Shown here: in pieces, positions 4,232-6,826 of the stretch
How positions within the stretch are numbered: position 1 is the first letter of the stretch
How the letters are laid out: the number at the start of each line of letters is the position of its first letter
Origin: Halorubrum lipolyticum DSM 21995
GTDB taxonomy: Archaea; Halobacteriota; Halobacteria; Halobacteriales; Haloferacaceae
Assembly: GCF_000337375.1 (NCBI RefSeq)
Contig: NZ_AOJG01000017.1
Span: forward strand, 100,771-139,348
Reading direction: 5' to 3'
DNA length: 38,578 bases
Program-made: the position numbers and the translations under genes
Notes under the pieces: model-generated
The model's database searches: none
What the model saw: the letters and a program-made list of their open reading frames with translations, nothing else
What the model was told of the DNA's origin: nothing

Positions 4232-4313
4232 GCCAGGATGGCCGAGTGGTAAGGCGCACGCCTGGAAAGCGTGTTCCCTTCCGGGATCGGGGGTTCAAAT
4301 CCCTCTCCTGGCG
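4232..4313 (+). tRNA. tRNA-Ser (anticodon GGA)
   Basis: A complete class II tRNA with acceptor stem GCCAGGA/TCCTGGC and discriminator G at 4313. The anticodon stem is CACGC/GCGTG with loop CTGGAAA, giving anticodon GGA (4264-4266), which reads UCC and UCU. The long variable arm TCCC-TTCC-GGGA and the T-arm GGTTCAAATCC are normal for tRNA-Ser. CCA is not encoded and there is no intron. The 3' end is embedded in the inverted repeat described next. Confidence 0.97.
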
Positions 4314-4523
4314 CTTCACTGTCGCAACAACGAGCGAGGAGCGACTGCGACGAGCGAGTACCGCGACAGTGAAGCGCCAGCGCATTTGAACCCTGTCAGT
4401 CGCGCACAGCGAACGTAGTGAGCGAGCACGTCTAATTTCGGTTCAAATCCCTCTCCTGGCGTCTTTCGCTGTCGCAACAACGAGCGAGGAGCGACCGCGA
4501 CGAGCGAGTACCGCGACAGCGAA
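4292..4523 (+). repeat. Duplicated tRNA-Ser 3' tail with two hairpin-forming repeats
   Basis: The last 22 nt of the tRNA (4292-4313) recur exactly at 4440-4461. Each copy is followed by a nearly identical stretch of about 60 nt (4314-4378 and 4462-4526). In copy one, an 18-nt inverted repeat starts inside the tRNA 3' end (4308-4325 with 4363-4380). In copy two the matching arms are 4465-4475 and 4513-4523. Stem bases that differ between copies change on both arms (TCACTGTC with GACAGTGA against TCGCTGTC with GACAGCGA). Between the copies lies an inverted ATTTGAACC (4384-4392) and an AGTGAGCGAG-type motif. The layout suggests an attachment-site scar or a local tandem duplication. Confidence 0.85.
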
Positions 4524-4606
4524 GCGACGCCGTTCGGCCGCCTCGCGGACGTTCCCGCACACCGACACAAGACTCATAAGTGTGGGTAGTGTTGACACGG
4601 ATGACG

Positions 4607-4834: not shown

Positions 4835-4945
4835 AGCGACGACCCGACAGCAACAGATCAGTAGCGACGCCCCGACAGCGACATCTCGATAGCGACGGCC
4901 CGACAACCACTGGTCAATAGCGACGGCCCGACAGCAAAGCACAGT
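4835..4945 (+). repeat. 28-bp tandem repeat, four units, upstream of thermosome gene
   Basis: Four head-to-tail units start at 4835, 4863, 4891 and 4919 (28, 28, 28 and 27 bp). The shared front half is AGCGACGNCCCGACAGC, and the rear half is more variable and ends in CANT or CGAT. There are no unique spacers, so this is a minisatellite and not a CRISPR array. It lies about 220-330 nt upstream of the thermosome start, within a 393-nt gap. Confidence 0.9.
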
Positions 4946-5167: not shown

Positions 5168-6826
5168 ATGAGCCAGCGAATGCAGCAGGGTCAGCCGATG
5201 ATCATCATGGGCGACGACGCCCAGCGCGTCAAGGACAAGGACGCACAGGAGTACAACATCTCCGCGGCGCGCGGCGTCGCCGAGTCCGTACGCTCGACGC
5301 TCGGACCGAAAGGGATGGACAAGATGCTCGTCGACTCGATGGGCGACGTCACCATCACGAACGACGGCGTCACCATCCTGCAGACGATGGACATCGACAA
5401 CCCGACCGCCGAGATGATCGTCGAAGTCGCCGAGACGCAGGAGGACGAGGCCGGCGACGGCACGACGAGCGCGGTCGCTATCGCGGGCGAGCTTCTCAAG
5501 AACGCCGAGGACCTCCTCGAGCAGGACATCCACCCGACAGCCGTCATCAAGGGCTTCAACCTCGCGAGCGAGTACGCCCGCGAACAGGTCGACGAGGTCG
5601 CCACACGGGTCGACCCCGACGACACCGAGACCCTGAAAAGCGTCGCCGAGACGTCGATGACCGGCAAGGGCGCGGAGCTCGATAAGGACACGCTCGCCGA
5701 CCTCGTCGTCCGCGCGATCCAGGGCGTCACCGTCGAGGCCGACGACGGCTCCCACGTCGTCGACCTGGCGAACCTCAACATCGAGACGCGCACCGGGCGC
5801 GCCGCCGGCGAGTCCCGGCTGCTCTCGGGCGCCGTCATCGACAAGGACCCCGTCCACGACGACATGCCGACCGACTTCGAGGACGCGAACGTCCTCCTCC
5901 TCAACGACCCGATCGAGGTCGAGGAGGCCGACGTGGACACCGCCGTCAACGTCGACTCGCCTGACCAGCTCCAGCGCTTCCTCGATCAGGAGGAAGAGCA
6001 GCTCCGCGACAAGGTCGACAAGATCGTCGAGAGCGGTGCCGACGTGGTCTTCTGCCAGAAGGGGATCGACGACCTCGCGCAGCACTACCTCGCGAAGGAG
6101 GGCATCCTCGCGGTCCGCCGGACGAAGAAGTCCGACCTGTCCTTCCTCAAGAACGTGCTCGGCGCGCCGATCGTCAGCGACCTCGACTCGCTCACCGCCG
6201 ACGACCTCGCGGTCGGCACGGTCACGCGCGACGCCGAGGAGGAGCTGTTCTACGTCGAGGGCGAGGACGCCCACGGCGTCACCCTCCTGCTGTACGGCAC
6301 CACCGAGCACGTCGTCGACGAGCTCGAGCGCGGTATTCAGGACGCCATCGACGTGGTCTCGACGACCGTCTCCGACGGGCGGACCCTGCCCGGCGGCGGC
6401 GCCATCGAGGTCGAGCTCGCCCGCCGGCTGCGCGACTACGCCGACTCCGTCGAGGGGCGCGAGCAGCTCGCCGTCGAGGCGTTCGCCGACTCGCTCGAAC
6501 TGATCCCGCGCGTGCTCGCCGAGAACGCCGGGCTGGACGCCATCGACCTGCTCGTCGACCTCCGCGCGGCCCACGAGGCCGGCGACACCGACGCGGGACT
6601 CAACGTCTTCTCCGGCGAGGTCGAGAACACGACCGAGGCCGGCGTCGTCGAGACGGCCCACGCGAAGGAGCAGGCGATCGCCTCCGCCGCCGAGGCCGCG
6701 AACCTCGTCCTGAAAATCGACGACATCATCTCCGCGGGCGACCTCTCGACCGGCGGCGACGGCGACGAGGGCGGCGCCCCCGCCGGCGGTATGGGCGGCA
6801 TGGGCGGCATGGGCGGTGCGATGTAA
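5168..6826 (+). CDS. thsA: Thermosome subunit (group II chaperonin)
   Basis: This 552-aa subunit of the archaeal chaperonin forms double-ring cages that fold proteins using ATP. It opens MSQRMQQGQPMII. The nucleotide-binding blocks are intact: TLGPKGMDKM, ITNDGVTIL, and GDGTTSAV, which contains the catalytic Asp of the ATPase. Later blocks GADVVFCQKGIDDLAQHYL and LPGGGAIEVEL are also complete. The disordered Gly/Met-rich tail (GGMGGMGGMGGAM) is typical. It resembles the Haloferax Cct1/ThsA type more than the other paralogues, but the exact subunit letter is from memory. The frame is open 96 nt upstream, but the proximal TATA box and the conserved MSQRM start fix this ATG. It is followed by a T-rich terminator. 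Confidence 0.95.
   Translation: MSQRMQQGQPMIIMGDDAQRVKDKDAQEYNISAARGVAESVRSTLGPKGMDKMLVDSMGDVTITNDGVTILQTMDIDNPTAEMIVEVAETQEDEAGDGTTSAVAIAGELLKNAEDLLEQDIHPTAVIKGFNLASEYAREQVDEVATRVDPDDTETLKSVAETSMTGKGAELDKDTLADLVVRAIQGVTVEADDGSHVVDLANLNIETRTGRAAGESRLLSGAVIDKDPVHDDMPTDFEDANVLLLNDPIEVEEADVDTAVNVDSPDQLQRFLDQEEEQLRDKVDKIVESGADVVFCQKGIDDLAQHYLAKEGILAVRRTKKSDLSFLKNVLGAPIVSDLDSLTADDLAVGTVTRDAEEELFYVEGEDAHGVTLLLYGTTEHVVDELERGIQDAIDVVSTTVSDGRTLPGGGAIEVELARRLRDYADSVEGREQLAVEAFADSLELIPRVLAENAGLDAIDLLVDLRAAHEAGDTDAGLNVFSGEVENTTEAGVVETAHAKEQAIASAAEAANLVLKIDDIISAGDLSTGGDGDEGGAPAGGMGGMGGMGGAM

Follow-up and report, generated by a model that had tools for sequence, protein, structure and literature searches.

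Clusters of intergenic palindromes that alternate in orientation and share a fixed family sequence occur in bacteria as REP, BIME and REPIN elements. Small inverted triplications (SITs) have been described in yeast rad27/FEN1 mutants and in cancer genomes, and in yeast template switching gives them a DUP/IN/DUP layout with spacers of about 30 bp (PMC13334657). ODIRA, with its hairpin-capped intermediates of inverted amplification, is related to SIT (PMC10766183). The small mobile repeats (SMR-A, SMR-B) and the PATEs of Haloquadratum are haloarchaeal sequences of about 80-110 bp without genes, which contain inverted repeats or palindromes and whose mobilisation is unknown; SMRs carry terminal repeats that are fixed, insert into IS605-type elements and cause no target duplication (PMC3119063). 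At the att sites of SNJ2-type tyrosine-integrase elements, a second copy of the tRNA 3′ end lies downstream of the gene (PMC8371274).

We analysed a window (the whole stretch of DNA under study, 38,578 nucleotides) from Halorubrum lipolyticum DSM 21995, a 3.4-Mb draft genome with Halorubrum species as close relatives. As in a SIT, one segment is present behind the tRNA-Ser(GGA) gene as direct, inverted and direct copies separated by two short spacers (about 30-50 nt), the junctions are palindromic, and copy number is labile. However, the spacers are not derived from the locus as in a SIT but belong to families (L1 and L2) common to different tRNA loci, the arrays are tandem, limited to tRNA 3′ ends and fixed across an archaeal class, and the repeated segment is shorter (22 nt to about 60 nt). 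The likeness to SMRs and PATEs lies in size, palindromes, lack of genes and haloarchaeal host. Unlike SMRs, the arrays take their arms from the local tRNA and are accompanied by direct repeats of the tRNA end; where MITEs and SMRs have target-independent terminal inverted repeats and disperse to many unrelated sites, inverted copies here follow the local tRNA, and the arrays are found in tRNA tails only. The alternating orientation is reminiscent of REP, BIME and REPIN clusters, but the arm sequence is local and varies by tRNA. A direct repeat of the tRNA 3′ end, as made by tyrosine-integrase elements, is present at the window locus, yet the arrays differ from SNJ2-type att sites in having no integrase or cargo, an inverted copy, a boundary at the T-loop and tandem units. 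The layout itself is therefore known; to the extent that we could check, the confinement to tRNA ends, the sharing of spacers between loci and the class-wide spread are new. We found no earlier description of such arrays in the literature searched, which covered few subscription papers, and prior notice is possible.

The tail of tRNA-Ser(GGA)

The window holds one unit, and the start of the next, of a tRNA-tail array typical of Halobacteria. Behind the tRNA gene come, in this order, a direct copy of the tRNA end (A), hairpin 1, an inverted T-arm copy (A′), the spacer L2, a further A and hairpin 2 (Table 1). Since the tRNA ends at 4313 according to Rfam and at 4314 according to ARAGORN, the left arm of hairpin 1 overlaps it by 6-7 nt.

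Table 1. Features of the tRNA-Ser(GGA) locus (positions within the window)
Feature	Position	Strand	Basis
tRNA-Ser(GGA) gene	4232-4313	+	Rfam, ARAGORN
First direct copy A, from the T-loop (GGTTCAAATCC) to the acceptor end of the tRNA	4292-4313	+	Repeat search
Hairpin 1 left arm, 6 nt inside the tRNA	4308-4325	+	Inverted-repeat pair
Hairpin 1 loop L1, motif CGAGCGAGGAGCGNNAGCGACGAGCGAGT	4326-4362	+	
Hairpin 1 right arm, inverted copy of tRNA end and tail	4363-4380	+	Inverted-repeat pair
A′, inverted T-arm copy (ATTTGAACC)	4384-4392	-	Predicted fold
Spacer L2, type a (CTGTCAGTCGCGCACAGCGAACG...GTCTAATTTC)	4393-4439	+	Also at other tRNA loci and in other genera
Second direct copy A, same as 4292-4313	4440-4461	+	Repeat search
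Hairpin 2, arms 4465-4475 and 4513-4523, extended by 4459-4463 with 4526-4530	4465-4523	+	

The initial annotation had described two tandem hairpins, and its coordinates proved correct for the pairing in both copies (18 bp with 6 nt in the tRNA for copy one, 11 nt per arm for copy two). The 62-nt copies at 4315-4376 and 4465-4526 are 95% identical. The annotation had overlooked both the duplicated tRNA end, which is exact over all 22 nt, and the inverted T-arm, through which hairpin 1 continues into the T arm and extends over about 4290-4394. The arms of hairpin 1 are 18 nt long and 100% complementary, its loop L1 measures 37 nt, and L2 measures 47 nt. The region 4290-4400 folds with -59.4 kcal/mol and a z-score of -7.2, far beyond chance, while hairpin 2 alone has a modest z-score of -1.9. 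Chance as the source of the hairpin was ruled out by the exact arms and this z-score, and the stem z-score exceeds 3 in 63 of 75 units when compared with mononucleotide shuffles.

No gene, integrase or cargo was recognised between the direct repeats of the 148-bp units, and no Rfam match above the gathering score was found outside the tRNA. An antisense ORF at 4316-4570 was rejected as a protein, having no Pfam or NCBIfam match. The halves of the type a L2 at 4393-4439 (GTCGCGCGC and GAGCACGTC) are by eye nearly inverted copies of each other with a mismatch at every third position, a pattern kept in several families. Elsewhere in the window, intergenic DNA at 4835-4935, before a thermosome-like gene (5168-6826), has a 28-nt period in three tandem copies (AGCGACGRCCCGACAGC...).

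Arrays at other tRNA genes of the genome

The sequence behind all 45 tRNA genes of the genome was surveyed. The A-L1-A′-L2-A architecture is present at 11 loci (about a quarter), each time made from the locus's own tRNA: Ser-GGA, Gly-CCC, Gly-TCC, one Gly-GCC, Lys-TTT, Val-TAC, Arg-CCT, Asp, Leu-TAA, Leu-TAG and Leu-CAA. By eye, Arg-CCG, Arg-GCG and Ala-GGC seem to have shorter versions made of the acceptor end, and the majority of the tRNA genes have no array. How closely the inverted copy follows its tRNA can be seen at Gly-CCC, where the T-loop is TTCAATT and the inverted copy GGAATTGAACC; overall, in 13 of 14 tRNA types A′ matches its own tRNA better than it matches others (Wilcoxon P 0.0004). 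At all tRNAs examined, the T-loop is where the repeat begins. Direct repeats sometimes extend beyond the tRNA end into the tail, distal A copies are degraded, and inverted copies are often degenerate at the junction of acceptor and T stem. L1 and L2 families recur at different tRNA loci, L2 even across families, and two spacer families dominate L2.

Two observations argue against generic palindromes that occur everywhere. In six genomes, the L1 motif CGAGCGAGGAGCGNNAGCGACGAGCGAGT turned up nowhere but at tRNA tails, and a scan for direct/inverted/direct triplets in 1.19 Mb of the genome (about one third), which made no use of tRNA sequence, yielded tRNA-derived sites as its sole strong intergenic cases. 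One of these sites is the displaced tRNA-Tyr array described below. The remaining strong triplets were single-N duplicates or coding repeats, and the others were weak ones in GC-rich DNA. Short duplications on either side of single Ns (L084, L128:8015, L139:1671, L147:16553, L173:13087) mimic tandem repeats and are probably assembler joins in the draft genome.

Two further repeats were seen in the tails. One is a palindrome (GGTGCGAGGTGCGAGCGAAGCGAGCACCTCG..GCGAGCGGCGAAGCCGCGAGC) nested in the L2 spacer of several different tRNAs (e.g. L008, L033, L112 and L122), as if hairpin loops were insertion targets. The other, a non-coding repeat of about 450-500 bp (CACCTCCAAAGCCCCAGCCGCGAGG ... GGCACGCGCC) distinct from the arrays, comes after the array or tRNA in several genomes: at L095, L101, L102 and L093 and, in the H. 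lipolyticum genome, at L090, behind tRNA-Leu(GAG).

Distribution across Halobacteria

A motif consisting of an inverted T-arm, 15-45 nt and a direct T-arm is present in 382 of 391 Halobacteria genomes and in 85 of 86 genera, while the reversed pattern, which served as control, is found approximately zero times. In other classes of the phylum the motif occurs at about control level. In seven genomes, which represent two families, 45 of 51 matches lie at most 600 nt 3′ of a tRNA gene, where about 1% would be expected by chance. The six exceptions include one match behind a tRNA-Gln that is absent from the Rfam list (L108) and one that belongs to a displaced tRNA-Gly array (L109, see below).

We also considered, and rejected, elements carried by viruses or plasmids. 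Four motif scans of viral contigs gave no match, and the phage matches are tRNA-Ser; the plasmid matches are tRNA-sized in bacteria, with one haloarchaeal tRNA-Val case in addition. On the Natronorubrum bangense plasmid NZ_CP031306.1 (L124:1862-2067), an L2-like element stands directly behind a tRNA-Val.

Copy number, chimeras and displaced arrays

Arrays comprise between zero and four units. In the orthologous tRNA-Ser tail of 51 Halorubrum genomes, the number of further direct T-arm copies is 0 in 23 genomes, 1 in 22 and 2 in 6, and by eye about 10 of the 51 have no hairpin, so the array is dispensable. At tRNA-Lys of genome G042 the array consists of 4.2 perfect 111-bp copies starting at the GG of the T arm. 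Three hairpin types (i, ii and iii) stand in different order at Ser and Asp tRNAs, and two units (L009 and L013) are chimeric, with left and right arms from different types.

Two integrase elements have displaced arrays. At tRNA-Gly(TCC) of genome G015, an 8-kb element (L109:287-8455) encodes an Eco57I/N6 methylase and a tyrosine integrase that occupies two reading frames, and is bounded by repeats of about 50 bp of the tRNA 3′ half; the array lies beyond it, pushed 8.4 kb away from the tRNA. An element of about 20 kb at tRNA-Tyr (L151:9049 to L152:9737; contig C41 of the H. lipolyticum genome, about 126050-146240) has displaced a two-unit tail array by about 20 kb, and its integrase (L152:8628-9668, PF02899 and PF00589 region) adjoins a 15-nt repeat of the tRNA end, TTCGGGGAGGGCGGA.

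Covariation of the stems

The initial annotation had noticed that a stem position differs in both arms between the two copies. This compensated pair is real (A-T at 4318/4370 in copy one, G-C at 4468/4520 in copy two), and because 17 of 19 hairpins have G-C here, which makes it the usual state in the genus, the A-T pair is probably derived. The pattern reaches beyond these two copies. In an alignment of 19 type i hairpins that includes both window copies (12 pairs, 228 cells), 95.6% of the cells are paired and 6 of the 12 pairs show compensated change; both values lie above all shuffles (0 of 500) and above all slid controls. The remaining 10 of 228 cells are unpaired, so arms sometimes diverge independently. 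The covariation of the stems is thus genuine, and uncompensated changes and chimeric units also occur. The expectation that arms would not diverge independently in related strains therefore stands for most arms, which change together, but not for those that diverge alone, nor for the two units that mix hairpin types.

Origin of the arrays

We favour an origin of the arrays by fold-back copying and recombination at the level of DNA over a role in RNA or a cassette moved by a recombinase, with a probability of roughly one half, on the strength of the sequence comparisons above. During replication, a nascent 3′ end would fold back within the palindromic tail (L1), and the folded strand would copy the tRNA end backwards, producing A′. 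Another switch, at the T arm, which forms a small stem-loop of its own, followed by forward copying, would then complete a small inverted triplication. These steps correspond to the model put forward for SITs in yeast (PMC13334657). Recombination between direct copies, together with slipped or rolling copying, may alter the number of units, and exchange between arrays through the conserved T-arm sequence could spread spacers. Arms would remain complementary because each is re-copied from its partner in the folded strand, and such hairpin-templated re-copying is the proposed reason that both arms changed together. The gene conversion through the hairpin, or structure-targeted DNA element, that the initial annotation had suggested pointed in the right direction. 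The array is most likely a by-product of such copying and not a part that the tRNA requires. There are also points against fold-back copying. A new inverted triplication is expected to have local spacers, so exchange between loci must be assumed to account for the shared L1 and L2; an error mechanism that is universal leaves the restriction to tRNA ends and to Halobacteria unexplained; and many inverted copies are degenerate at the acceptor/T-stem junction.

The compensated changes and the strong fold of hairpin 1 would also be expected if hairpins in the pre-tRNA helped to end transcription, trim the 3′ end or control how the tRNA folds, and pairing were under selection in RNA; moreover, transcription can be terminated by hairpins in Haloferax volcanii, as seen for one motif at 59% (PMC7237163). 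We nevertheless consider such a function unlikely, and a required role in tRNA 3′ processing or termination, as envisaged by the initial annotation, was not supported. The hairpin is missing behind the same tRNA in the congeners mentioned above and absent at most tRNAs of the genome, a consensus scan found no GC-rich hairpin with a T-run as terminator, distal A copies decay, and in the predicted minimum-energy fold of a read-through RNA the tRNA would lose its acceptor stem and T arm to the hairpin. Sense-strand mismatches point both ways: in the hairpins A-C outnumbers G-U (36 to 17), the contrary of what RNA selection would produce, while T-arm pairs show the reverse (9 to 23), both being counts from sequences that are not independent.

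Movement at the level of DNA could instead involve gene-less cassettes that an integrase or transposase places at tRNA 3′ ends in trans, the tRNA-proximal unit being the newest; the cassette would be either L1-A′-L2 with tRNA-end direct repeats or an L2 module with T-arm terminal inverted repeats. Spacers common to tRNA loci and genera, the varying order of hairpin types, the nested palindromes in L2 and the usual preference of integrases for tRNA 3′ ends (PMC8371274) are consistent with this, as is the tail of L028, which compared with L032 seems to have one additional tRNA-proximal unit with a precise tRNA-end repeat. However, the units have no gene and no copies in viral contigs or phage records, the two genuine integrase elements have att repeats with limits other than those of the units (about 50 bp for the tRNA-Gly element, about 15 bp for the tRNA-Tyr one) and each only displaced an array, and integrase recombination by itself creates no tRNA-specific inverted copy. 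Nor does a sporadic enzyme fit arrays that are found in almost every Halobacteria genome, and we regard the cassettes as a rather doubtful explanation. That the arrays are remnants of integrated elements, the second A being an old attR and the hairpins the residue of deleted proviruses or plasmids, is very improbable: integration usually leaves behind direct repeats of a tRNA 3′ end, and integrated elements do occur at tRNA-Gly and tRNA-Tyr, but the constant T-loop boundary and the tandem recurrence of units with the same two spacers speak against it, no size gradient was seen between units and full elements with the same ends, and the inverted copy is left unexplained. A dedicated haloarchaeal element or activity might, finally, build hairpin-capped (dumbbell) cassettes on tRNA 3′ ends that are rolling-copied and re-inserted at the T arm. 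Closed on itself, A-L1-A′-L2 would form a duplex capped at both ends by conserved hairpins, and its rolling copying would give perfect tandem arrays; we think such a dedicated activity unlikely too.

Implications

Under either fold-back copying or a dedicated activity, the arrays complicate the prediction of att sites at tRNA genes, and they yield spurious short antisense ORFs in which the T arm is translated as GFEP. A dedicated activity, if true, would mean a new and so far undescribed kind of gene-less mobile DNA, kept class-wide in archaea. If fold-back copying is true, haloarchaeal tRNA genes would be a natural record of inverted triplication, a rearrangement investigated until now chiefly in yeast and cancer, and a tractable archaeon would allow tests of how fast it occurs and which genes are involved.
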